Part shown: in pieces, positions 8,047 through 34,492 of the stretch
Position numbering within the stretch: the stretch's first letter is position 1
Layout of the letters: the number at the start of each line of letters is the position of its first letter
DNA from: a virus
DNA length: 34,492 nucleotides
Direction: 5' to 3' (one strand)
Virus record (IMG/VR): IMGVR_UViG_3300032304_000308
Coordinates: 1 to 34,492 of that record
Program-made: the position numbers and the translations under genes
Notes under the pieces: generated by a model
Databases searched by the model: none
What the model was told of the DNA's origin: nothing
Seen by the model: the letters and a program-made list of their open reading frames with translations, nothing else

Positions 8047-11000
8047 ATGAGTCCAGATCAATGGTTAGCTAGTCAACCAAAGAAAGAAAAGGCTCAAGCT
8101 GGATTAAGTCCTGACCAATGGCTAGAGCAGCAAAAGGAAAAGCCTAGTGTTGCTTTAAGTCCTGACCAATGGTTGAAGCAGCAAAACACTACCCCACAAC
8201 CGGAAGGGCAAGAGGCTAAAACTTCTAACCCACTTGTGGGCCTTGCTGGTCGTGCTGCTGACCTTGCAGGCGAAGGTATTGAGGGTATTGCTCGTGTTGC
8301 AGAAAGAGTTGGAGATAAGTTAGAAACTGCAATCCCTCTAACTAACTTAACGCCCGAACAAATTCAACAAGAGAACCAGCTACAGCCTCTGTTTAATTTC
8401 TCTAAGAGCCTTAAAAATTGGAGTAAAGATCTCGGCTACGCCCCATCTACGCAACTAGGGGAACTTCCGGGTAAACCCTTATTGTTAGTGCCTTTTATTG
8501 CTGAGCGTGTTATTGCATCATCTCCTGATATGGTAGCTGCAGTGGCTGTAGCTCCTGCGTATCTTGTTTCTTTAACCAACGAAATTCTTAATACCCGCTT
8601 AGAAAACGACAACAAATCTTTAGAAGAAGCAACTGCAGCAGACGTTGCCGCCGCTACGGGCGCCGCTATATTCCAAACTTATGTAGAAAGATTTGCTACT
8701 AAGCGTTTACTTCCAGGTGGTGGAGGTGTTGGTTCTACAGTAGGGAAACGGATTGGTAAAGAAACAGCAGTACAGTCTGGTACAGAGGCAGTTGAAGAAG
8801 GCGTTGGGTATTTAGGTGGTGCTGCGGGCACTGAAAAAGGTATTGACCCATACCAAATGGCCCAGCAAATGATTGAAGGTGCTATAGTCGGCGGCGGTTT
8901 GGGTGCGGCTGTTCAAGGAGGAAAAGAATATGTATCAAGACCTAGAGCTAACGATGGAACAAGTGAGCCAGGCATTTCGGGTGATCGCACTGAAGGAGAA
9001 GCTCCCGGAGGAACTGGAAGACTTGACGAGGAAAGACTGGATGTTTTTGGCAAACGCACTAGAATTATTAATGGAAGAGAAGAGAGTGTCTACAATCAAC
9101 TAGAAGAAATTGATTTACAACTAAAAGGGTTAACAGAACAGCGTAATCAAATACAAGACCCTAATGACCCTGCTATTGGCGAAATAGACCAAGAAATAGC
9201 CCAGTTAAATCAAGCTAAAAAAGATATAGACAAACCTGCACCAATACCAAAAGCTGGGGATACCGTAGTTTTAAACTATGAAACTGAAGCTGGAGTAAGA
9301 CAAAAAGACGCTACAGTCGGTGAACCTGTTTATGTAGACGCCGACGGCAATTTAGTTAAGAAGAACCAATTTGGTAAGTTTCCTAAAGGCACTAAAAATC
9401 CTGAATTAATGGTGCCGTTGACGTTTGATTTTGACGGTCAACCTACAACTACTATGATGTCGCCGACTGAGCTAAGTGCCCGCACGGCTGAGATTATTGA
9501 GCCCACAGCTACAGCTAAAGAAAAAGCTTATAACGCTCCTGGGCAAGAAGGGTTTGACTTTACCGAGCCAGATGAGAACACGCAGCGTATATTAAGCACT
9601 ACGCAAGAGTTTGGTTTGACTGCCCCTGAGGGTAAGGTTGACGTATCTAAGCCGCTTGAAAAGCTAGAAACACCAGACTACGAAACCAGTAAGATGATGC
9701 TGGTAGATACGGGTGCTAAACCTACAAACCGTCTGTTTTCTTTTATTAGAAGTTTAGTACCAAACACCCAAAGCGAATCTGAGGCTAAGGCATATGGTGC
9801 CGAGCTTGAAAACATTGTTAGTGAGATTGAAGAGTTTCACCGAGACGCGCAAGGGCAAGAACGCACAAACCGTTTACGCTGGTTAAATAACTTCTTTGAT
9901 GCTTTTAGTATTGCCCCAATAGCTAACCAAGGTGATACTTCTCGTTTACCCGAACTTATCAAAAACCGTACCCCACAAGAGCAAGAAGCCCTTTTATCCG
10001 CCGCAACTCAGTTCCCTAAGTTAAATACTGCTCGTGGGCTCGACAAGTTCCGTGAGATGCTATCTGAGCACATGATGGACTACACCGAGGCTAAACTCGG
10101 TCGTTCTAGGGGCTATGCAGTTCTACCGTTTGACGCCGACACGGGTGTAGATTTAGTCCCAACACAGGACCAAAAAGCTCTATCTCAGTTAACTAAGGAT
10201 AGCAAAGACCCTAAAGAGCGTGCAGCATATAACTACTTTAGCAGCTACTCCGACTACTTCTCTCCATATATTATGGCAATGCGGTCGGCGGCGTATGACC
10301 TAGGTACTAGCACTGCTGTTAAACAAGGCGAGCTATATAAGGGTCAGAATCGTGATACTGCTAAGCTATTTAGAGATTGGATTGCTGAAAACTTGGGTCT
10401 TAATACATTAGCCCGCTTTGATGCGACTGTAGAAGAGTTCCGCAAGCAGAATGACCGCTCTAGCAAACTAGATAAAGAAGCGCAAGCAATTGAAGACCGA
10501 GGCCCTATCGATAAGAAGGCCCCTATATTGCAGTCGTTGTTTAGGGCGCCTAGCGGTAAAACACTTAAAACACTACCTATAAGGGTTGGTAAGAAATTAT
10601 CTAGGGGGTTGACGCAGTTTATTAACCCTAAGCGCTTTGACGTAATGCACCCAGCTATCCAAGAAAAGATCAATCAAAACGATATCCAAGGTGCTTTAAA
10701 ACTTATTTCTAGCGCTAAATACGGTAACGTGTTCCAACAAAATTTAGCTAAGCGTTTAGCAGAGATTAAATTAAACACGACTATTATGTTTGATGCGCAG
10801 GAATTATACGCTCAAAAGCTTGTCGATAAAAACACCGCCGTAGAACGTCTTGAGCTAGTCAGTTTCTTAAAAGCAGCATACCCCGAAGTAGCTAAAAAAT
10901 ACTTTAATAACTTAACCAATATTAAAGAAACCTTTAATTCAATTAGCCAACTACGTGAAGGCAAGCTAGGCATCGACGCCGAGGGGTTAAAAGCCTACGT

Positions 11001-18006: not shown

Positions 18007-18032
18007 ATCACCTCAAAATCCGAAGAAAGGAA

Positions 18033-18084
18033 GGGCAGCAGGGGGGTCGGCATCCCCCTTTTCGTTCCGTCAAACTAGCTGCCC
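18033..18084 (-). promoter_or_regulatory. Nested intercistronic hairpin before the primase-helicase gene
   Basis: Outer arms GGGCAGC (18033-18039) and GCTGCCC (18078-18084) enclose an inner G5/C5 stem (within 18041-18058, 7-base loop). It lies between the HTH stop (18095) and the primase ATG (18006), about 26 bases before that ATG in the mRNA. On the plus strand the inner stem is followed by TTTT; on the coding minus strand it is not, so it is not a normal terminator for this operon. It may control primase expression or protect the mRNA. Confidence 0.55.
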
Positions 18085-18094
18085 CGGGGGTAAA

Positions 18095-21802: not shown

Positions 21803-22007
21803 TTTGTTTCTCCAATCTAGCAATTTCACGGTTGATGTACCACACCGCTTTTTTTAAGTCTTCTAAATGTTTACCCTTTAATCCAGCACGCCATACATAC
21901 TTAATAGCATTACCAAGATTAAAGTTCATATGTTCGGTGATCTGAATGCACTCTATACCCGATGGGTGGTCGGTGTAGTGAACTGGATGGTTAACTGGGT
22001 CGATCAT
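21795..22007 (-). CDS. DUF3310 family protein
   Basis: From the ATG at 22007 the product is 70 residues. It has DPVNHPVHYTDHPSGIECIQ, GNAIKYVWRAGLKGKHLEDL and KKAVWYINREIARLE. These are hallmarks of DUF3310, a small phage family sometimes annotated as a nucleotide-kinase-like protein without firm evidence. GGTGGAG stands seven bases upstream. The frame extends 27 codons further up, but that part is a Leu/Lys-rich shadow of the sigma-like gene, so I rejected it. It overlaps both neighbours by a few bases, consistent with coupled translation. Confidence 0.88.
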   Translation of the reverse strand: MIDPVNHPVHYTDHPSGIECIQITEHMNFNLGNAIKYVWRAGLKGKHLEDLKKAVWYINREIARLEKQNG

Positions 22008-22206
22008 TTTTCTCCACCAAATCTTCAAAAGTAATACCTTTTTCTTTAAGAGCAGCCTTAAACTTTTGCATAGCTCTTTTCTCAACAACAGATATATATT
22101 CTCTTCTCGAATTTAATACTTGCGCCACTTCTTCTTGTGTCATGTCAAACAAAGCGTTATCTTTTGTTTCCGGTACAACTTCGTTAATATACTTTTCTTT
22201 ACGCAC
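21991..22206 (-). CDS. Sigma-70 region 4-like DNA-binding protein
   Basis: The 71-residue protein contains MTQEEVAQVLNSRREYISVV then EKRAMQKFKAALKEKG. This matches the helix-turn-helix of sigma-70 region 4 (the RE-x-x-x-x-x-E-x-RA-x-x-K recognition-helix pattern that binds the -35 element). The start is a GTG at 22206 with AGGAGG seven bases upstream, overlapping the preceding stop by eight bases; the frame is open nine codons further. Phages use stand-alone region 4-like proteins as transcription switches or anti-sigma partners. It might connect early to late expression here, but no target site is shown. Confidence 0.75.
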   Translation of the reverse strand: MRKEKYINEVVPETKDNALFDMTQEEVAQVLNSRREYISVVEKRAMQKFKAALKEKGITFEDLVEKNDRPS

Positions 22207-22399
22207 CCTTCTTCCTCCTAGGCTTAGCCGCAACTATGCCAACTTCCTGTTCGGGCTCTTTGTTCCGTGCTCTTAACATAGCATCTGCGTACTCATAAGC
22301 GGTCAATGAAGCTGATTCTGAATCTTCTCCTTTGTGCGCAAATACAATACCTAGCAAAGCAAACATCGCAAAGCAATCCCTCAAGTCTTCATCGTTCAT
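22199..22399 (-). CDS. Small acidic-start hypothetical phage protein
   Basis: The 66-residue protein starts MNDEDLRDCFAMFALLGIVF and continues with a helix SLTAYEYADAMLRARNKEP; the tail is Lys/Arg-rich (KPRRKKGA). I recognise this order (MxDEDLRDxFAMxA, then a YxxADAMLxAR helix) from small hypothetical proteins of many tailed phages. Its ATG overlaps the nuclease stop (ATGA). No function is known. The last codons overlap the GTG start of the sigma-like gene. Confidence 0.8.
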   Translation of the reverse strand: MNDEDLRDCFAMFALLGIVFAHKGEDSESASLTAYEYADAMLRARNKEPEQEVGIVAAKPRRKKGA

Positions 22400-26675: not shown

Positions 26676-26703
26676 AGTATAGCACATACAAAGTCAAACG
26701 CAA
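26676..26703 (-). promoter_or_regulatory. Extended -10 promoter giving a possibly leaderless mRNA
   Basis: The minus strand reads TGCTATACT, an extended -10 (hexamer 26681-26676), six bases before the VRR-NUC ATG. Transcription would then start at about the A of that ATG. A weak -35 (TTGCGT, 26703-26698) has a 16-base spacer. No Shine-Dalgarno lies between. Confidence 0.5.
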
Positions 26704-26740
26704 GAAATATTTTAGCTATTTTATAGGTGTTTTCCCCTGT

Positions 26741-26767
26741 AACATTCTTACAATCCGTTAGATTGTT
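26741..26767. repeat. Dispersed palindrome, copy A
   Basis: Arms AACATTCTTAC (26741-26751) and GTTAGATTGTT (26757-26767) surround a 5-base centre, with two mismatches. It is one of five related palindromes in the right arm. Unlike the others it lies about 70 bases ahead of the VRR-NUC ATG, between the terminator of the upstream operon and the VRR-NUC promoter. Confidence 0.7.
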
Positions 26768-26770
26768 TCA

Positions 26771-26796
26771 ATAAAAAAGCCACCCGAAGGTGGCTT
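26771..26796 (-). terminator. Rho-independent terminator with UUCG loop
   Basis: A 7-bp stem (AGCCACC 26778-26784 with GGTGGCT 26789-26795) has the very stable loop TTCG on the minus strand and is followed there by TTTTTTAT. It ends the operon whose last gene is 26960-27829. Confidence 0.92.
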
Positions 26797-26959
26797 AGTG
26801 TTGCTTTGGAGGTGAAATGTATTCAGACATTCCCTAGGTTCAGCAGATTACGCCCTAGTGCGTTTGAGTAGCTACTGCGGGGTACATACATCTGCCATAT
26901 AAATATCCCCAGCGTGTGAAAGGAGGTCACCATGCGGATCACTCACTTATTAGTATACC
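26797..26959. other. Non-coding strip / long 3' untranslated region
   Basis: This stretch lies between the stop of the 289-aa gene and its terminator; no recognisable gene fills it. The minus-strand RNA holds two CCUCC tracts (reverse of GGAGG at 26808-26812 and AGGAGG near 26921-26926). The plus strand therefore shows two ideal ribosome sites, each followed by an ATG (26817, 7 codons; 26932, 28 codons). A minus-strand frame of 36 codons (26933-26823) also exists without a good ribosome site. It may be a regulatory 3' region. Confidence 0.4.
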
Positions 26960-27829
26960 TCAACTTACGACAAAAGCAAAACCTTCGCCGTAATGACAGC
27001 CGATTGTTGCGATAGCTTCACCTTCCGCTAGCACCTTGAACATAGCGTACTTCTGTTGTATGTTCTCAGGCAGTTCGCTAAACGACTCATACCTTTGCAC
27101 AGTACCAGTAGCGTAGCTATACACAACCAAGCTTTTGTCGACATTGAGCTTTACACCATAGCCTTGCTTTGCCCCGACCATATCTTTAAGGTGCTTTGCT
27201 ACTTCAAACTTTTCGCACTTTTCGTCATGGTTAGCAATGTTACTGATACTGGCAGGCTTGGCTGGCATAGTACACGCAGCGTCCCCCCGCCGTCTTGCTT
27301 TGTATGCTTGCATAGCATAGAGGGTTAGCTCACCGTCAACGCTGAAATCCCACCGCAACTGATTGGATAGCGTGTCGTGTGCACCCCTCACAAACCCAGT
27401 AACTTTGTTGCCTATCAAGTCCGCTAGCTCTGTGTCCTGCCTTGGAGTAAACATTTTCTTAGCTATGCTAACAGCTTTCTTCATGTCACTTGTCGTAGCC
27501 ATGTTGCGGTTACCCTTAGCTTTATTGATGCGGAAACTCTCTATACCATAGGCGTCCTCGTTCATCCCGTTTCTCCAACGGCTAGTAATACTAATAGAGC
27601 CTAGCCTTTCGCCGTTCTCATACACACGGACATTGTTTATGGTGTAGCGGATTTTTGTTTCTTTGTCGGCATCATCTCTGTACCGTTCTGTCCGCACACA
27701 CTTGTCCGATACTGAAAACTTAGCAAGGGGCTTTATCATTGCGACCTTCTCTAAGAACTCTTCCAAGTTCGGTGCGTAGTCAAGGTTACGCCACTCGGTT
27801 TTTAGTCTTGTTCTATCTACTACAATCAT
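26960..27829 (-). CDS. Hypothetical protein of the MoxR-VWA module (289 aa)
   Basis: The protein has an N-terminal alpha/beta region (TEWRNLDYAPNLEEFLEKVA, then TINNVRVYENGERLGSISIT), a central SDMKKAVSIAKKMFTPR helix and a beta-rich C-terminus (YGVKLNVDKSLVVYSYATG). No enzyme motif or membrane segment is seen. AAGGAG stands before its ATG, nine bases after the DUF3150-like stop. It is the last gene of the block that ends at the terminator 26771-26796, so it is probably expressed with the MoxR/VWA genes. Function unknown. Confidence 0.75.
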   Translation of the reverse strand: MIVVDRTRLKTEWRNLDYAPNLEEFLEKVAMIKPLAKFSVSDKCVRTERYRDDADKETKIRYTINNVRVYENGERLGSISITSRWRNGMNEDAYGIESFRINKAKGNRNMATTSDMKKAVSIAKKMFTPRQDTELADLIGNKVTGFVRGAHDTLSNQLRWDFSVDGELTLYAMQAYKARRRGDAACTMPAKPASISNIANHDEKCEKFEVAKHLKDMVGAKQGYGVKLNVDKSLVVYSYATGTVQRYESFSELPENIQQKYAMFKVLAEGEAIATIGCHYGEGFAFVVS

Positions 27830-27838
27830 GGGATCTCC

Positions 27839-28705
27839 TTAGAAACTGAATTTAGAAAGTATTGCGTCAACCTTAGTCTTTACTGCTTCTCTAGCCATAT
27901 GACTTTCTCTGAGGTCGTCGGCGTCGTGGTTCTTAATAGCGTTCTCCAACTCGGTACGAGCCGTCTCCATATTAGAGTCACCTGTGAGATTAAAATGTTT
28001 CAGGAGAGAAGTTAACTCAACAGCATTCTCTACCAATGTGTCGTGTATTCGCTTGCGGTCCCCGTTTTCATTATCGGAGAGTCTTTCACTCATACGCAGT
28101 AAGCAATCGTGCAGGCGAGTCCACGCATCTTTCATTGCGTTGTCCAAGCGTTCTTTGTACAGACCTTCGCAACTCATGATGATCTCCGCTTTAGCTTCTT
28201 CGTTGATGTCCACACGGAAATCCCCTGCCATTGGCACAGGCAAGTAGTTAACTCGGAACTTAAACTTCCTAGCTACTGTTTCGGGTTCGGGGTACTCGCT
28301 ACGATCAAACAAATCACCAAGCTGAAACGCCGCCGCACTTACTAGGTTAGGATAAGCAACGATGAACTTGTCCACCAATGCCTGATAGTTTTTCTCAAGC
28401 GTGACTAGGTTCTCTTTGTAAGCTAGGAAGTTGCTCATTGGCAATAAACGCAACCCATTGTCAGACCAAGGTAAAGTCTGAGTCGAGTGCCAATGCCTAG
28501 CCGATGCGGCATACTTGTTAATAGTATCTAAAAACCCAGTACCCGCCAAGAGGTTCTTGTTGTAATTGCCTGCCCTTGTCTTGGTCTGTTTATCCAAGTC
28601 CACCTGAGTGGATACCTTCTTGTCTAGCTTACGAGCAGTCCACGCACTAATAGATAACTCTACTAACATGGCTGATGATGCGATTGATATGCTGTTCTCT
28701 TGCAT
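27839..28705 (-). CDS. DUF3150-like companion of MoxR/VWA proteins
   Basis: The 288-residue protein starts MQENSISIASSAMLVELSIS, followed by AWTARKLDKKVSTQVD and KTRAGNYNKNLL. It also has HWHSTQTLPWSDNGLRLLP and long helices to the end. This resembles DUF3150, which I know from phages and plasmids where it often accompanies a MoxR-type AAA ATPase and a VWA protein. It is predicted soluble and mostly helical, with coiled stretches that may contact the ATPase. AAAGGTAG precedes its ATG, just downstream of palindrome B. The assignment is from pattern memory, not a profile search. Confidence 0.65.
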   Translation of the reverse strand: MQENSISIASSAMLVELSISAWTARKLDKKVSTQVDLDKQTKTRAGNYNKNLLAGTGFLDTINKYAASARHWHSTQTLPWSDNGLRLLPMSNFLAYKENLVTLEKNYQALVDKFIVAYPNLVSAAAFQLGDLFDRSEYPEPETVARKFKFRVNYLPVPMAGDFRVDINEEAKAEIIMSCEGLYKERLDNAMKDAWTRLHDCLLRMSERLSDNENGDRKRIHDTLVENAVELTSLLKHFNLTGDSNMETARTELENAIKNHDADDLRESHMAREAVKTKVDAILSKFSF

Positions 28706-28726
28706 GATTAACTACCTTTCTTTGTT

Positions 28727-28757
28727 GGAACATCCTAACGCTTTGTTAGAATGTTCC
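28727..28757. repeat. Dispersed palindrome, copy B
   Basis: Thirteen-base arms GGAACATCCTAAC (28727-28739) and GTTAGAATGTTCC (28745-28757) have one mismatch and a 5-base centre: the best copy of the family. It fills most of the gap between the VWA and DUF3150-like genes and lies 21 bases before the latter's ATG, next to its ribosome site. Confidence 0.9.
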
Positions 28758-28767
28758 GTTGGTTTAA

Positions 28768-29958
28768 CTACTCGACATGAACTACTTTACCTACAACTGA
28801 ACTACTATCAAAGCGTGAGTTGCCTTTGATGCACCACATGGTAGGCATGGTGACTGAACTCCAATTACCTATATCTGAATTGATATACCCGTCGGTGAGC
28901 ATAATGACGCACTCAGGGACTAGGTTCTCTTTCTTCATATAAGCAGGTACGCAGTCAGGGTCAGTACCGCCCCCGCCTTTGGCTTGCGTTGATTCCACTA
29001 GGTTGCATAACTCTGCCCCTTGGTAGGTTTCATGCCCAGCCACACGAGTGTCCCAATACAACAGATCGATCTTTTCGGGACAGACTTCGTCGCAAATTGA
29101 CTTGACTTCGGACAAGAATCCCGCCAGTTCCTCGCCACCAATAGAGCCTGAGGTGTCGATACCAACAAGGATTGCCCCTACCTTTTCATCGTAAGATGAT
29201 GGCATGATTAAGTCCGATGCGATATACCGCTTATGCAAGCGACGCCATGTAGTTTGATCCTTGCCTTGAGTGGTCGTCTTAACAAAGTCACGCAATGCCT
29301 CCTTCCAATCAATCTTGGGAGTCATGAGGTCTTGCAGTTCTCTAGAAACATTACCGCCCATCTTACCTGCTAGGATAGAACCTTGACGCAATGCTCTCTC
29401 GATCTCGTTGGCGATCTCTGCCTGTTCCTCAGGCGTTGCTTCCTTCGCCCCTTCCCAATCGTGTTCGTCAAAGCCTTTCTCGCCACCACCTCCGCCACCG
29501 CCGTGCTCTTCGTATAGCAATGCAAAGACTTGTGCCGTATCCATACCCCGATACTTTTCATCGATCAAGCCCATCACATTACCATCAGCATCGACTGGCA
29601 TCTCAACATCGTGACCCTCAGGATCATAGTCACGGATCTGTAAGTTAATCACATAGTCGCAAGCAGCGTTAGCTAGCTGTGCATTTTTCTTATGTAAGTT
29701 CTCCCACACAACCAAGTGGCGGTATGCCTTGTGCATATTCTCATGCAAGATAACAAAAGCCAAAGCCTTGTCAGTCAAGCTATCCACAAAGGCACGACCA
29801 TAGACAACATCTAAACCGTTTGTCTTAGCAGTCGGCGTATCATCATCTACTGATACCTTGCCCACCATAAACAAACCCGAGAACAAACAGAAGTTCCTGT
29901 GTTTCATCAACTGCACATGAGTGCGTTCAATGCGTTGTTCCGCTGATAACTTGCTCAT
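28768..29958 (-). CDS. VWA-domain protein with N-terminal metallopeptidase-like domain (DUF2201-like)
   Basis: From the ATG at 29958 the product is 396 residues. The N-terminal part has ILHENMHKAYRH with HENMH (72-76), an HEXXH zinc motif. A linker with seven Gly follows, and then a von Willebrand A domain with MIDAS residues DTSGS (268-272), Thr332-Asp333 and LTDG (Asp356). This is the layout of the putative metallopeptidase plus VWA-like (DUF2201) family. VWA partners of MoxR ATPases act as client adaptors in metal insertion or chaperoning. The ATG was chosen because GGAGGAAG stands six bases upstream. It overlaps the upstream 83-aa gene by 32 bases. Confidence 0.88.
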   Translation of the reverse strand: MSKLSAEQRIERTHVQLMKHRNFCLFSGLFMVGKVSVDDDTPTAKTNGLDVVYGRAFVDSLTDKALAFVILHENMHKAYRHLVVWENLHKKNAQLANAACDYVINLQIRDYDPEGHDVEMPVDADGNVMGLIDEKYRGMDTAQVFALLYEEHGGGGGGGEKGFDEHDWEGAKEATPEEQAEIANEIERALRQGSILAGKMGGNVSRELQDLMTPKIDWKEALRDFVKTTTQGKDQTTWRRLHKRYIASDLIMPSSYDEKVGAILVGIDTSGSIGGEELAGFLSEVKSICDEVCPEKIDLLYWDTRVAGHETYQGAELCNLVESTQAKGGGGTDPDCVPAYMKKENLVPECVIMLTDGYINSDIGNWSSVTMPTMWCIKGNSRFDSSSVVGKVVHVE

Positions 29959-30178
29959 CATCTTCCTCCATTTCTTTGATATGTTCTTCATACTTCTCTA
30001 CTGCTTGGCTAAGCAAGCGGAGTAACTGCACCCCTGTCATGTTTGCTTGACCCATTGCCGTTGACACTAACATAGACACGAGTACAGACAACACTACCTC
30101 GAGTTCTATCTTTTCCTCGGTAAGTAAGTCACCCACCTTATCCGCCAACTGCTCGGCTTTCTCTTTTACATCCATCAT
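29927..30178 (-). CDS. Helical hypothetical protein in the MoxR-VWA module (83 aa)
   Basis: The product begins MMDVKEKAEQLADKVGDLLT. A central stretch (IELEVVLSVLVSMLVSTAMG) is hydrophobic but interrupted by Glu, so it may be an amphipathic or membrane-associated helix. It ends in an acidic helix (EKYEEHIKEMEEDDEQV). ATGATG marks the start, overlapping the stop of the tiny membrane protein upstream, with GGGAG before it. It sits between MoxR and VWA and may be an assembly partner; no family is recognised. Confidence 0.72.
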   Translation of the reverse strand: MMDVKEKAEQLADKVGDLLTEEKIELEVVLSVLVSMLVSTAMGQANMTGVQLLRLLSQAVEKYEEHIKEMEEDDEQVISGTTH

Positions 30179-30273
30179 TTACTCTCCCACAATAAGTTAA
30201 TTAAAACATAGGCAATAACGCCCCATGCAAACACACCACTTAACACAAAAAATACAGTTAGTATTCCTAACAT
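30175..30273 (-). CDS. Tiny membrane protein (32 aa) in the MoxR-VWA module
   Basis: A very strong ribosome site (AAGGAGGG) stands before an ATG at 30273 that opens a 32-codon frame. The product starts MLGILTVFFVLSGVFAWGVI and continues AYVLINLLWESK: one membrane helix with hardly any loop. Its stop overlaps the next start, so it is coupled to the 83-aa gene. It might anchor the MoxR/VWA complex to the membrane; that is an inference from position. Confidence 0.75.
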   Translation of the reverse strand: MLGILTVFFVLSGVFAWGVIAYVLINLLWESK

Positions 30274-30282
30274 AAACCCTCC

Positions 30283-31377
30283 TTAGAACAAATACTGATT
30301 AGTACGCATCCAATCAACAAACGATTGGCTTGTCAAGAATAGCTTCTTCTTCTCGTCGTTCTTCATACCAGTCAAGCAGAACACAGACTGCAACTCTTTC
30401 GGTGTACGCTTGAGATACTCAAAGAACTTACCAATAGATTCTCTATCCACACGCTGAACCGCAGAGAAAGCTAGCAGGCACAGAGCCGCAGGACTTGTCG
30501 GAACTTGAGCCGTTGCGGGGGACTTGCATATCTCCTCCCAACTTGGGAGGGAGTCGGCGACTTCCACAAAAGACATAAGATCCCTAGCGGCAGGTGCTCC
30601 GATCGTACCTTCCAATGCACAGATGGTCGTGTTAGTAGTGATGCCTGCTCGAGCCTTGAGGATATTACTTGCCCTTACTAGAGAACGAGGACTAACAAAA
30701 GACTTCTGTGCTTCCTTGGGGTTGAAGATATACTTATTGCCAGCCTGTGCTGAGTCAAGATAAGATGCCAAGCAATGCGGACTATTCTTTACCCATGCTA
30801 GAACCTCAGGTGCAACATCATTATCGACAGCCCATGCACCCCATGAGTCAGCATCAATAGAGCCGTCAGGGTTAAAGCCTGCGTGTGGTTTCTTTACAGT
30901 CACGACGGATACTCGGTTGCGAGTATGTGATCTCATGTTGTCACCAACGCCGTCGCTTGTGAAGTTGCCCGCAGTAATAACGATCGTGTCTTTATGCAAA
31001 GGTATGCCCATGATCTGCCGTGGCTCGTTAAGCATGGGGTGTAGCATATTCTGCACAGACTGATGACCCTTCGTAATCTCGTCACAGAAAATAACCAATG
31101 GCTCATTAAGATGAAAACCCCATTGCTCATTCGGATAGATACGCGTGGTCTTGGTTGTGTGGTCGGGGATCGGGATACCTAGCTCGCCTAGCTCTACATT
31201 GGGTACATCAATATAAATACCCTTGAACCCTGTGCGTCGTACTATGTTCTTAAACATAGCGGTTTTGCCAACCCCGGGCTCGCCCATAAGGTGTACTGTT
31301 CCGTTGCTACCCAGAGCGACGATTTGATCCTCTGCCTCTTTGAGAGTTGCAGACTTATTTAGAAATACTTCAGACAT
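30283..31377 (-). CDS. MoxR-family AAA+ ATPase
   Basis: The 364-residue protein has Walker A GEPGVGKT (32-39), Walker B LVIFCDEITK (94-103), sensor region ITAGNFTSD (about 134-142) and an Arg-rich SHTRNRV segment that could hold the arginine finger. The MoxR group works with a VWA protein to remodel or insert metal into clients, as in RavA-ViaA and NorQ-NorD. Here the VWA partner lies downstream in the same direction, separated by two small genes. AAGGAAG stands eight bases before the ATG, just after palindrome C. Confidence 0.92.
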   Translation of the reverse strand: MSEVFLNKSATLKEAEDQIVALGSNGTVHLMGEPGVGKTAMFKNIVRRTGFKGIYIDVPNVELGELGIPIPDHTTKTTRIYPNEQWGFHLNEPLVIFCDEITKGHQSVQNMLHPMLNEPRQIMGIPLHKDTIVITAGNFTSDGVGDNMRSHTRNRVSVVTVKKPHAGFNPDGSIDADSWGAWAVDNDVAPEVLAWVKNSPHCLASYLDSAQAGNKYIFNPKEAQKSFVSPRSLVRASNILKARAGITTNTTICALEGTIGAPAARDLMSFVEVADSLPSWEEICKSPATAQVPTSPAALCLLAFSAVQRVDRESIGKFFEYLKRTPKELQSVFCLTGMKNDEKKKLFLTSQSFVDWMRTNQYLF

Positions 31378-31403
31378 AATGAACTTCCTTTCGTTGTTGT
31401 TGA

Positions 31404-31431
31404 GAACTTTCTAACGGTTGTTAGATTGTTC
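31404..31431. repeat. Dispersed palindrome, copy C
   Basis: Arms GAACTTTCTAAC (31404-31415) and GTTAGATTGTTC (31420-31431) have two mismatches and a 4-base centre. It lies 26 bases before the MoxR ATG, immediately ahead of its ribosome site, and 12 bases after the stop of the upstream 308-aa gene. Confidence 0.8.
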
Positions 31432-31443
31432 GGGGTACTGCGA

Positions 31444-32370
31444 TTAAATATACTTAGCGTTGCGGTCATAGAAAGCGTTGCCAATTTCAATCGGCTCGGC
31501 GGTGAAAACTTCGTCTTTAAATCTATACTTGACTATCTCGGTAAAGCCGTTGAGAAAGTCGTTCGTATTGCAACAGCCCATCCAACCAAAGCCATGACCC
31601 AATTCCGTTGCGGCTTGGTATGCTACCTCTAGGTCTCCAGAGTCAATAAAAGAATCTATTAACTTAAACACACGAGCACGGTTATGTATTGCCGCTTCTT
31701 TATTCCAGCCACGATTAGTAAAGTTATAGTAATACCAAGAATCTGAACCTTTCTTGTCTTTGTCGGGTAACTTAGTGTCGATACTGAACATAGCTATGCC
31801 GTACTCAATAAACTTAGCGTAACGCTTGCGGACTGCGTTCATCGCCCTGCGGTTTGCTTTGTACTTGTGCTCTTGCTTCGGGTTAGTCGGTCGCATTACT
31901 CTAGCCATGACTCCGCCGTATTCAGACTTCCCCTCGCCTGTTGGCTCTAACATCAATCCCTCGTGGGTCATGATATAAGACTTGCCGTCCTTGGTTTTAA
32001 AGTAAGGCTTGCCGTTGAACGAATAGATTTCTCCGTAGGTGTCCGAGATCGAATAGTTGACCGTTGAGTTGATCGTGGGGTTAGAATACCCGCCAGTTCC
32101 TACCCAAATACTGCCGTCGGGAAACCACTCGACCCTATCCTTACCCCACACATTGGCAGAGTAAGTGACAACCCATTGACCCACACCGCCATCATCGACG
32201 GATCTCCAATTCTTCTTGATAGTGCGGTCGCTATGTTGCCGTTGCGAACCCAAGGGGCGACACTCTTCCTTCCTACCCCTGATTGGCGTTGTGTTGTCAA
32301 ACTTAATCTTGGCTTGCTCGTAGCTAGCAAGTTGCTTGACCCCTGCGGTATTTCCAAATCCCCATGACAT
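31444..32370 (-). CDS. Hypothetical protein (308 aa) upstream of the MoxR-VWA module
   Basis: The product has a beta-rich N-terminal half (VGQWVVTYSANVWGKDRVEW, then DGSIWVGTGGYSNPTINST) and a helical C-terminal half (RRAMNAVRKRYAKFIEYGIA). A Gly/Cys patch GHGFGWMGCCNTNDFLNG occurs near the end. No membrane segment or known catalytic motif is apparent. AAAGGAG precedes its ATG at 32370. It is separated from MoxR by palindrome C, so it may be a separate transcript unit or the first gene of the same block. Function unknown. Confidence 0.75.
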   Translation of the reverse strand: MSWGFGNTAGVKQLASYEQAKIKFDNTTPIRGRKEECRPLGSQRQHSDRTIKKNWRSVDDGGVGQWVVTYSANVWGKDRVEWFPDGSIWVGTGGYSNPTINSTVNYSISDTYGEIYSFNGKPYFKTKDGKSYIMTHEGLMLEPTGEGKSEYGGVMARVMRPTNPKQEHKYKANRRAMNAVRKRYAKFIEYGIAMFSIDTKLPDKDKKGSDSWYYYNFTNRGWNKEAAIHNRARVFKLIDSFIDSGDLEVAYQAATELGHGFGWMGCCNTNDFLNGFTEIVKYRFKDEVFTAEPIEIGNAFYDRNAKYI

Positions 32371-32371
32371 A

Positions 32372-32626
32372 TTAAATCTCCTTTAGAATTAAATAACAGA
32401 TATAAACAAGAAACCCAATGGCAGGTGCTATCCACACCAACCCACCTAAAAACTCTACGCAGTCGTCCCACTCAGACTTATGCCGTTGTATTGCTATAGC
32501 GTAGTCGGCGTCTCTAAAAGCCTCGCTTGCTGAGCGGTGCGTTTTATTACTCCATATAAACTGAGCAGGGTCTGTTTCCCCTAGGTAAAGCGTCTTTACC
32601 GCTTTCTTTTTAGTATTCTTTGGCAT
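32372..32626 (-). CDS. Small membrane-anchored hypothetical protein (84 aa)
   Basis: From the ATG at 32626 the product is 84 residues. It has a basic start (MPKNTKKKAVKTLYLGETDP), a charged middle and one C-terminal membrane helix (FLGGLVWIAPAIGFLVYICY, then LILKEI). This makes it a tail-anchored type of protein. The frame is open further up, but that part overlaps the next gene, so the later ATG is favoured; its ribosome site is weak. Role unknown; it is one of several small membrane proteins in this arm. Confidence 0.65.
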   Translation of the reverse strand: MPKNTKKKAVKTLYLGETDPAQFIWSNKTHRSASEAFRDADYAIAIQRHKSEWDDCVEFLGGLVWIAPAIGFLVYICYLILKEI

Positions 32627-32960
32627 AGTCTTCGTCCCATTTGTTGTCAAAGTCGGTAGTAGCGTTGAGGATAGGTAATTTAAGGCACTCGGCAAATCTC
32701 TCCACTTGCAGAGCAACACCCTCTATCGTTTCGCTACCAACAGTAGCGTTGCAGTACCCACATGGCTCACCCTTGTCGTTGTAATAAACTTCTTGGATCT
32801 CGAGCCAATCCCCATCAAGCCCATCGTCAGGCATACGAACTAAGCGGTGATTCCAAAAGCTTCTTGGTTCTTTGTCCTGTTGCTCTTGTTCCTCGGTCAG
32901 CTTTTTAAAAGCCTCATCTTCCTCGGGGGTAGATAAGTCCTGCAATGTCCATGTTGTCAT
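32610..32960 (-). CDS. Hypothetical phage protein (116 aa)
   Basis: The ATG at 32960 overlaps the preceding stop (ATGA). The protein has an acidic coiled N-terminus (STPEEDEAFKKLTEEQEQQD) and a C-terminal strand-helix unit: EIQEVYYNDKGEPCGYCNAT, then ETIEGVALQVERFAECLKLP. The 'YYNDKGEPxGYC...QVERFxxCLxxPIL' pattern is common in small phage proteins of unknown role. Palindrome D lies 33 bases upstream of its start, inside the end of the preceding gene. Confidence 0.75.
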   Translation of the reverse strand: MTTWTLQDLSTPEEDEAFKKLTEEQEQQDKEPRSFWNHRLVRMPDDGLDGDWLEIQEVYYNDKGEPCGYCNATVGSETIEGVALQVERFAECLKLPILNATTDFDNKWDEDYAKEY

Positions 32961-33235
32961 TTGCCACACTCGCTTTCTTGGTTAGTTTCGGTTGGAACAT
33001 CCCTACCATCTGTTAGATTGTTCCGTTCCATGTCTATAAAAATATTTACTGCCTCGTCCATCTTTTCCCCATAAATGCGTTTGAGGTCAACGATGGTTTT
33101 GGTGTTTTTTGCGTCAAGCATAGCTTTTGCCCCACCAGTTTTTACATCTAAATACATACGCACCAATGCCTCCTGATCCTCTAGGTTATCTATTAGGTGT
33201 GCTATGTTCAGTTGCATCTGCTTTAATTTACTCAC
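32957..33235 (-). CDS. Helical hypothetical protein (92 aa) with repeat-derived tail
   Basis: The product is helical (LKQMQLNIAHLIDNLEDQEA, then TIVDLKRIYGEKMDEAVNIF). Its last 20 or so residues (RNNLTDGRDVPTETNQESEC) are encoded by palindrome D and flanking bases and look disordered. ATGA overlaps tie it to the genes on both sides. Function unknown. The tail may have been added when the palindrome entered the 3' end of the gene. Confidence 0.7.
   Translation of the reverse strand: MSKLKQMQLNIAHLIDNLEDQEALVRMYLDVKTGGAKAMLDAKNTKTIVDLKRIYGEKMDEAVNIFIDMERNNLTDGRDVPTETNQESECGK
32994..33024. repeat. Dispersed palindrome, copy D (inside a coding end)
   Basis: Arms GGAACATCCCTAC (32994-33006) and GTTAGATTGTTCC (33012-33024) are separated by 5 bases. 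The outer six positions match and the middle has four mismatches, so this is the most decayed copy. It is the only copy within a reading frame, the 3' end of the 92-aa gene. Confidence 0.72.
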
Positions 33236-33426
33236 AGCTTCTCCTTCTGTAATGCAGTTAACTTCGCTTTTGCGAGGGCAAGCGAGGTATAGCCCTGTGC
33301 TACTTCTTCATACTGTGCAAGCGAGAATGGGTCGGAGTCTGCTGTTAATAGCTTAAGGCGTCCCTCCATCTCCGTTATCAGCTCGAGCAATTCGCTAATG
33401 CGTTGCCCCTTGTAGTGCGTTTTCAT
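33232..33426 (-). CDS. Small coiled-coil hypothetical protein (64 aa)
   Basis: The product begins MKTHYKGQRISELLELITEM and is helical throughout (SLAQYEEVAQGYTSLALAKA), likely one or two coiled coils. AGGAGATA precedes its ATG, which overlaps the upstream stop (ATGA). No function recognised. Confidence 0.7.
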   Translation of the reverse strand: MKTHYKGQRISELLELITEMEGRLKLLTADSDPFSLAQYEEVAQGYTSLALAKAKLTALQKEKL

Positions 33427-33617
33427 TCTGTATCTCCTGTAAATTTGTAGTTAAACCCTGCCAAGAACCCATCGACATAGCCCTGCTTTAGAAACCTACC
33501 CCCGTGGCGTTCCTCGATCGTACCTGTTGCGGAGTTGTATTCCTCGATATAGTTCCAGCTTTTTAATAGGGCGATGTTGATTACGCTATCCTCGACTGGC
33601 GGATCTTTACTGTTCAT
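33423..33617 (-). CDS. Hypothetical protein (64 aa)
   Basis: From the ATG at 33617 (GGAGGTGG just upstream, strong) the product is 64 residues, with IALLKSWNYIEEYNSATGTI and GGRFLKQGYVDGFLAGFNYK. The Trp/Tyr/Phe-rich ends suggest a small folded domain. The frame is open ten codons further, over the preceding gene, and I did not use that start. Unknown function. Confidence 0.7.
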   Translation of the reverse strand: MNSKDPPVEDSVINIALLKSWNYIEEYNSATGTIEERHGGRFLKQGYVDGFLAGFNYKFTGDTE

Positions 33618-33795
33618 AAGCCACCTCCAGCTTCTCCCCGAACACATACAGGTACGGATTGCTCTCGGCGACTAACGCTCTCTTTTGTTCCACGGTCGGT
33701 GCTTCCCTTAGTTTTTGGAGAAAGTCGTTGCCCCGCAGGAAGGCGTCCGATGGTATCCCCTTGTTTAGTGGTGCGGCAAATAGTGTGCGTGTCAT
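33607..33795 (-). CDS. Small early protein (62 aa)
   Basis: The product is MTRTLFAAPLNKGIPSDAFL then RGNDFLQKLREAPTVEQKRA and an acidic/aromatic end. It is helical and soluble, with AGAGGAC before its ATG. It overlaps the next start by eleven bases and the upstream gene by four (ATGA), so it belongs to the early coupled string. No family recognised. Confidence 0.68.
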   Translation of the reverse strand: MTRTLFAAPLNKGIPSDAFLRGNDFLQKLREAPTVEQKRALVAESNPYLYVFGEKLEVAYEQ

Positions 33796-33992
33796 GTTGT
33801 CCTCTTTGGGTTAAGTTGCTTTAGTAGCTCAAGGTCGGTGATGAGCATATAGTTGGATTTGTTGATCGGGGCGATTGTTCTGCTTAGGCTTTTGGCTTGG
33901 GCTTCGATATCTCCACAGGCTAGGCAATACTTGTAACCCAAGGCGGATCTGCCCTTGCTTACTGATGCCCCGCATCTCATACATATCTTCAT
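33792..33992 (-). CDS. Small zinc-ribbon-like protein (66 aa)
   Basis: From the ATG at 33992 the product has two CxxC pairs in MKICMRCGASVSKGRSALGY then KYCLACGDIEAQ, a probable zinc ribbon. The C-terminal part reads IAPINKSNYMLITDLELLKQ and ends NPKRTT. I recognise this Cys-x2-Cys, 'NKSNYxxITDxxLLxxLNPKRT' pattern from small phage proteins. AAGGGGAA precedes the ATG. The frame is open further up into the next gene, which I consider a shadow. Possibly an early nucleic-acid-binding protein. Confidence 0.78.
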   Translation of the reverse strand: MKICMRCGASVSKGRSALGYKYCLACGDIEAQAKSLSRTIAPINKSNYMLITDLELLKQLNPKRTT

Positions 33993-34002
33993 CGTTTTCC
34001 CC

Positions 34003-34224
34003 TTAGTTGGTTTCTGTGTATCGTAGCCCTGTGTTGGCGTCAATAGTGTTTGGCTCAGGGGGTGTGGACTTAGCTACGATTGCTTTGATAACCTCGATGA
34101 CTTCGTAGTCGGTCATGAGTCCGCCCTTGTATAGCGGATCTTCAAATGCGTCTAGGATATTCCCGAGGGTTGTGGAAGACTTGATGTCTTCTTTGTATTT
34201 ACTCCATTGGCTGATGTCTTGCAT
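34003..34224 (-). CDS. First early gene: hypothetical protein (73 aa)
   Basis: The ATG at 34224 has AAGGAAG upstream; the product is helical, starting MQDISQWSKYKEDIKSSTTL and including DYEVIEVIKAIVAKSTPPEP. A frame open to 34353 would start inside the promoter and was rejected. It is the first gene downstream of the strong promoter 34325-34353 and lies 19 bases after palindrome E. Products made first after infection often counter host defences or take over the host, but nothing in this sequence shows which. Confidence 0.7.
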   Translation of the reverse strand: MQDISQWSKYKEDIKSSTTLGNILDAFEDPLYKGGLMTDYEVIEVIKAIVAKSTPPEPNTIDANTGLRYTETN

Positions 34225-34243
34225 GGTTTGCTTCCTTTCGTTT

Positions 34244-34274
34244 GGAACATTCTTACTTGCTGTTAGTTTGTTCT
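34244..34274. repeat. Dispersed palindrome, copy E
   Basis: Arms GGAACATTCTTAC (34244-34256) and GTTAGTTTGTTCT (34262-34274) surround a 5-base centre. It lies 19 bases before the first early ATG, immediately upstream of the ribosome site, in the untranslated leader of the transcript from 34325-34353. Confidence 0.8.
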
Positions 34275-34311: not shown

Positions 34312-34326
34312 CTGGACTTCGTCCAG
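34312..34326. promoter_or_regulatory. Dyad over the start site of the right-end promoter
   Basis: CTGGAC / GTCCAG with a 3-base centre forms a perfect dyad that touches the -10 element and covers the expected transcription start. It could be an operator. As RNA it would form a hairpin at the very 5' end of the early transcript. Confidence 0.5.
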
Positions 34327-34353
34327 TATACCACAATAAGCTAACAATGTCAA
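34325..34353 (-). promoter_or_regulatory. Strong sigma-70 early promoter
   Basis: On the minus strand: a perfect TTGACA (34353-34348), a 17-base spacer and TATACT (34330-34325; 5 of 6), with TGG just before the -10 (extended -10). It points into the right-arm genes, starting with 34003-34224. This is the best promoter in the window and is consistent with use by host RNA polymerase for early expression. Confidence 0.85.
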
Positions 34354-34492
34354 GTTTTTGTTCTAGGCTTCTGGGGCTGGGTAAAGCGTTGTATTGTTCG
34401 GGTTATGTGGCGGGTAATGGTGAGAGCGGTGAAAGCTTTGTATTGTTCTAGATTTGCGTGGTTTAGCTAGGGGGAGCTTTGTTCTAGATTTG
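34354..34492. repeat. Iterated TTGTTC elements upstream of the early promoter
   Basis: No gene is seen here. TTGTTC occurs at 34358, 34394, 34443 and 34479 (spacings 36, 49 and 36). The last two are part of a longer near-repeat (34434-34456 and 34475-34492) that reads AGCTTTG, then TTCTAGATTTG, differing by a 5-base TATTG. TTGTTC is also the outer end of the right arm of the dispersed palindromes. This could be regulatory sites, origin iterons or terminal repeats; the window ends inside the last copy. Confidence 0.55.

Follow-up and report, generated by a model that had tools for sequence, protein, structure and literature searches.

What role might be played by a set of related palindromes that punctuate the right arm of an uncultivated phage genome, and which factor might read them? 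The window analyzed here, meaning the whole stretch of DNA, is a 34,492-base virus record from IMG/VR with unclosed ends, which we take to be a fragment; no terminase, portal or capsid gene was seen in it. A sequence-only reading of this DNA had pointed to five inverted repeats and had offered three roles for them, namely operators through which a phage regulator controls the gene blocks together, RNase III-type processing sites, or 5′ stabilisers. All five repeats are present (Table 1) as a family of related palindromes of 28–31 bp, and, with copy C as the query, a search of the entire window returned exactly these five and no copy in the left arm, as had been claimed. The placement of copies B, C and E just before a start codon was likewise borne out (20–26 nt by our measurement), and so was that of copy D, which additionally reaches into an upstream ORF. 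A seed-free search for palindrome families counted four members in the window against two in shuffles, the count being four and not five given the shorter centre of copy C. The Rfam search of the right arm returned no family at the palindromes.

Table 1. Palindrome copies and neighboring features in the window.
Feature	Coordinates	Strand	Remarks
Early promoter-like TTGACA-17-TATACT	34325..34353	-	TG before -10; 11/12 matches; unchanged in L126; -10 ends ~51 nt ahead of copy E
Copy E	34244..34274	-	Follows the early promoter-like sequence and precedes the block's first gene; in-place inversion in L126
73-aa ORF	34003..34224	-	Start 20 nt past copy E
Copy D	32994..33024	-	Overlaps 3′ end (last codons) of 92-aa ORF 33235-32957; next start 34 nt on; same orientation in L126
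Copy C	31404..31431	-	26 nt ahead of MoxR-like gene; centre shorter by one base
MoxR-like AAA ATPase gene, 364 aa	30283..31377	-	Downstream of copy C; query for finding relatives
Copy B	28727..28757	-	Ahead of 288-aa gene
288-aa gene	27839..28705	-	Downstream of copy B; found in 25/25 genomes compared
Intrinsic terminator	26777..26796	-	8-bp stem and T run; directly before copy A
Copy A	26740..26768	-	~8 nt after terminator, upstream of promoter-like sequence; no start codon nearby
Promoter-like TTGCGT-16-TATACT	26676..26703	-	After copy A, ahead of Hjc-like gene; moderate score of 8.2

The collection of relatives through the MoxR-like gene yielded 60 loci, and the inspection of 56 loci, the window included, revealed a palindrome within ~90 nt upstream of this gene in 54, with a sequence specific to each phage; four of the 54 (L057–L060) carry a shorter palindrome, and L061 and L062 carry none. 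Examples from this site are GGACAAACTTAG-n6-CTAAGAATGTCC, GGACATAGTGTCA-n3-TGACACTTTGTCC and TACTTGGCGACA-n3-TGTCGCTAAGTA, and at least 15 palindrome types were counted. Scans of 24 records found 3–10 copies of the own type in the early block of each, summing to 157 distinct copies, while the seed-free search detected up to 11 like palindromes per relative against 2–4 in shuffles. The copies of each phage are spread over an early block of roughly 10–11 kb, and their length, mostly 27–31 bp overall, is nearly constant inside one phage. Type switching is evident even among close relatives. In G001, the closest relative from the MoxR search (MoxR protein 97% identical, DNA mostly 75–89%), the palindromes are of the CACTACCTGACA kind and unrelated to the GAACAATCTAAC kind of the window, so that around copy C the flanks of the two genomes align and the palindrome does not; similarly, G004, G007 and G024 have core proteins 88–91% identical and three different palindrome types. 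Genes kept with the palindrome lost, the case which the sequence-only reading had named against itself, is not the pattern at the MoxR site, where the site is retained and its sequence replaced. The suggestion that the repeated unit is specific to this genome came close, since one other public viral contig (L126, obtained solely by searching viral contigs with the palindrome of the window) matches it, and the remaining relatives carry other units, each its own. In DSL-LC04 and HTVC027P, phages related by terminase only, the first 50 kb showed no palindrome family exceeding shuffles; among named phages, neither a close relative of MoxR nor a match to the single fam18 member (see below) tested was found, and the cellular genome collection gave no MoxR relative.

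The gene products that might change together with the palindromes were examined by relating palindrome distance to protein identity in each shared gene family, with core-gene identity controlled. By these comparisons, palindrome type follows fam18, a single fast-evolving early protein of ~200 aa that is often present twice per phage and whose genes lie near the beginning of the early block, mostly ~3.5–6 kb upstream of MoxR. The first scan, covering about 40 families, was exploratory, and fam18 was picked from it because it stood out there (partial r 0.64); the larger set, the test based on the MoxR site alone and L126 came later, and the sets overlap. Across 31 loci, the partial r was 0.81 for the N-terminal and 0.77 for the C-terminal part of fam18, with 0/1000 permutations for each, although permutations overstate independence because the loci share ancestry. 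Control families exhibited values near zero (MoxR 0.02, the 288-aa protein 0.04, hjc 0.08 and polA -0.08), and vWA reached 0.18. When type was taken from the MoxR site alone, the correlation with fam18 was still 0.78, and as this site lies ~3.5–6 kb from fam18, linkage through neighboring DNA is an unlikely cause. The signal is carried by same-type pairs: among pairs with core identity below 0.80, the median fam18 identity was 0.68 for the same type versus 0.19 for different types, and the L126 fam18 compared with unlike types only gave no gradient (rho 0.14, p 0.42). A counter-example is provided by L047 and L048 versus L053, which have similar palindromes and fam18 proteins only ~25% identical. 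For the window itself the argument goes through L126, because the window ends before the fam18 gene; in L126, fam18 (10138-10842) stands behind a window-type palindrome at 10087-10115.

Another phage regulator, either one of the small HTH proteins or a 308-aa protein, might bind the sites instead, with fam18 following by linkage or partnership. Small HTH-like proteins are indeed encoded in most genomes, and the 308-aa protein has a partial r of 0.54. That value, however, falls to 0.18 with fam18 controlled, whereas fam18 keeps 0.73 with the 308-aa protein removed, so the correlation of the latter is mostly explained by fam18. The small HTH proteins that the sequence-only reading had proposed as readers do not track palindrome type, and the protein that does is encoded outside the window: an 81-aa HTH protein is 97–98% identical between the window and G001, yet their palindromes are unrelated, and small sigma-r4-like proteins differ among phages of one palindrome type (T4). 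Linkage is improbable too, because MoxR, which is located between the sites, does not track type. Taken with these observations, binding by another regulator appears very improbable. A fast-evolving 289-aa protein was also considered as a reader and rejected on its weak correlation (0.16); both it and the 308-aa protein are no more alike between G014 and G017, which share type T1, than between phages of different types. Pfam and PHROG searches on 82 early proteins produced scattered HTH matches, none of them common to all.

The positions of the copies relative to predicted transcription signals were then compared over the whole set, all promoters being sequence predictions. Out of 163 copies, 102 sit 9–47 nt before a start codon, and 27 of these 102 have a predicted sigma-70-like promoter with a score of at least 10 within 75 nt upstream, against a background of 3% of random early-block stretches. 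Many of these upstream promoter-like sites read TTGACA-17-TATACT, with the -10 ending ~28–51 nt before the palindrome. Among the 61 copies away from starts, 17 have a promoter-like site downstream and 23 follow a terminator. The last copies of a block are typically ordered terminator, palindrome, promoter; this order, seen at copy A in the window, recurs in most relatives, many of which have a promoter counterpart scoring 11–14 against 8.2 in the window. No promoter was found inside a palindrome, and of 61 copies that have a promoter-like site nearby, 59 have it wholly upstream or downstream of the palindrome. A search with PF00940 (T7-like single-subunit RNA polymerase) matched nothing in 11 records, in which the control likewise matched nowhere.

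The comparison with L126, which at the DNA level is ~93% identical to the window over the early block's first kilobase, revealed how individual sites can change. The two sequences have nearly identical flanks at site E, including the promoter, but the palindrome is inverted, and nearby an extra palindrome of L126 forms a clean 33-bp insertion that is absent from (or was lost in) the window. Such an inversion and such a clean presence/absence, together with the further differences in orientation at corresponding sites of type T1 phages, would be expected if the palindromes were small mobile or recombining elements that spread without a regulatory function. Against this, their positions are retained across phages despite the replacement of the sequence, their geometry to promoters recurs, and they co-vary with one distant protein, which together make non-regulatory elements a very unlikely explanation.

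We next consider whether the palindromes act as DNA or as RNA. As RNA hairpins in 5′ leaders they could be targets of fam18 or of some other phage-encoded protein, either in antitermination like that of N/boxB or in translational control. N/boxB pairs are phage-specific as well, and the location of most copies shortly before a start codon would suit such a role. The sequence-only reading had expected an RNA hairpin of up to 13 bp at each copy, which was confirmed for copy B only (-18.6 kcal/mol, z -7.7); copy C also folds strongly (z -6.2), and folding is weak for copy A (z -1.3) and for copy E (-4.7 kcal/mol). Over the 157 copies, pairing comprised 1477 Watson–Crick, 71 G–T and 58 A–C positions, so that there is no G–T excess (p 0.29) of the kind expected for RNA stems. 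Positions in the middle of the half-sites usually differ between the two halves and thereby mark orientation, which relative to the MoxR copy was the same in 56 copies, flipped in 58 and undecided in 29; no orientation is fixed. There is a sense-strand bias in mismatches (120 A·A against 53 T·T) that speaks for RNA and that free orientation alone does not explain. However, copies upstream of a promoter lie outside the transcript begun there, as do those right after terminators with respect to the transcript that follows, which argues against a role confined to RNA. The missing G–U excess, the occurrence in either orientation with inversions in place, the near-constant length and the positions at terminators and promoters favor double-stranded DNA operators over RNA hairpins, and we regard the latter as unlikely.

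Much the same evidence bears on RNase III-type processing sites or 5′ stabilisers, for which the location ahead of ribosome sites was the attraction. Besides the copies outside transcripts, the inversions, the lack of G–U excess and the two window copies that fold poorly, a phage-specific sequence requires a factor that reads sequence, and stems of ~12 bp are shorter than those of typical RNase III substrates. We consider these two roles extremely improbable; of the three initial proposals, operators for a phage regulator that controls the gene blocks together is the one to which site context, orientation and co-variation point.

We therefore favor, as the likely reading of these sequence comparisons, a phage-specific network in which the palindromes serve as double-stranded DNA operators, most likely bound by fam18, probably as a repressing or roadblocking dimer. 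Each palindrome consists of two half-sites of ~12 bp (the outer part near ACAAA, the inner part variable) facing each other across a centre of 3–6 bp, to which this phage-encoded early protein would bind, and bound fam18 would probably repress or roadblock early transcription, both at promoters and in the intervals from gene to gene, in the manner of mycobacteriophage stoperators. Several fam18 genes stand directly behind a palindrome, and the protein would probably limit its own synthesis as well. The location of sites shortly after predicted transcription starts favors repression, and an activating or anti-silencing role would also fit the co-variation with fam18. Because 11 records yielded no tyrosine integrase, a role in immunity is uncertain; our simpler guess is that the early genes are shut off in the course of lytic growth.

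Dispersed repeats of comparable organization occur in other phages. In phiC31, the phage repressor binds conserved inverted repeats (CIRs), operators that are scattered among the early genes, and the palindromes resemble them, by general description, as dispersed inverted repeats at early genes. The ESAS of cluster K mycobacteriophages are described, in the passages of the reports concerned with them, as imperfect inverted repeats that immediately precede many non-structural genes, composed of 17-bp repeats with spacers of ~4–14 bp and tied to the 13-bp SAS motif GGGATAGGAGCCC, with a consensus that varies among phage subclusters and a promoter-like sequence in the unit (PMC3203893, PMC11373665, PMC12699233). 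The palindromes likewise are imperfect inverted repeats upstream of starts in the 102 copies above. Unlike the ESAS of those passages, they have the promoter before or after the palindrome and not within it, and SAS is not enriched in the window (4 matches at 3 mismatches versus 5.3 expected, none near palindromes); the same passages name no co-varying reader, whereas here fam18 is a candidate. In cluster A mycobacteriophages, stoperators (L5 Rep) are many dispersed intergenic sites, some at promoters, whose sequences are phage-type-specific and vary with the repressor; they are 13-bp asymmetric sites oriented with transcription, are recognized by an HTH repressor of temperate phages that has two domains and binds as a monomer, and block transcription elongation when occupied (PMC6550527, PMC9283540). 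The palindromes share with them the dispersed, phage-type-specific sites that co-vary with a protein, here the putative regulator fam18, but are ~29 bp long, occur in either orientation, and have a candidate reader in which no HTH is recognised, in phages of which 11 records gave no tyrosine integrase. Our best reading is a network similar to stoperators and ESAS that, by the features tested, belongs to neither, with a new candidate regulator family. If so, it would join cluster A as a further natural example of many dispersed operators switching specificity in concert with their reader, in this case among uncultivated phages and through a candidate reader lacking a known fold match. Close pairs with switched type would make testable both the joint change of a regulator and its many sites and whether types set the compatibility between phages in one host population, and the system bears on the unexplained ESAS elements.

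With regard to the protein, we lean slightly towards fam18 representing a new class of sequence-reading DNA-binding proteins, with the palindromes at all sites replaced together with the protein and at least 15 operator codes within one phage group. No Pfam or PHROG family matched fam18, and the lack of a match does not prove that a fold is absent; the best hit of a fold search with its model was VIA, whose Z of 7.1 lies in the chance range for helical proteins, and no HTH relative was listed. A recognised DNA-binding motif was likewise not detected, and none of the three members examined has a net basic N domain. In the AlphaFold models, with a mean pLDDT of 91.6 (T1 member) and 84.8 (L126 member), the protein is helical throughout, a helical N-terminal domain being followed by long helices. 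The stretch of fam18 that correlated best with palindrome type, residues 73-88, matches a predicted helix at 76-90, a hint only, since all stretches correlate.

Evolution has been far faster in the 308-aa and 289-aa proteins than in the MoxR/vWA/288-aa group that lies between them, and neither of these two proteins has a match in PHROG or Pfam.

Upstream of MoxR, at a distance of ~3.3-5.2 kb, a GGGAACTGGTTGTAAGCGACGC..TAGCC stretch is kept in twelve related phage records and loci (G008, G009, G013-G017, G023, G024, L007, L031 and L035), often near a palindrome and preceded by a T-rich or terminator-like stretch; in several of the genomes, TGTTCTA-like repeats come after it. The GAACAA-containing repeats of the window (34360-34492) are perhaps the same repeat region as that of the relatives.

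The int-alpA RNA of the window is located immediately 5' of a 947-aa ORF, and the related loci L069, L078 and L097 likewise carry this RNA; despite its presence, a tyrosine integrase was not found in the 11 records searched. Relatives of the sigma-70 region 4-like small protein are encoded by many of these phages in a comparable position.

Additional features of the window
Feature	Position	Strand	Remarks
308-aa protein	31444-32370	-	flanks MoxR/vWA/288-aa group
289-aa protein	26960-27829	-	flanks MoxR/vWA/288-aa group
GAACAA-containing repeats (n=4)	34360-34492	-	ahead of early promoter
int-alpA RNA	18019-18085	-	Rfam RF02996, 49.7 bits
Small protein with sigma-70 region 4-like domain	21991-22233	-
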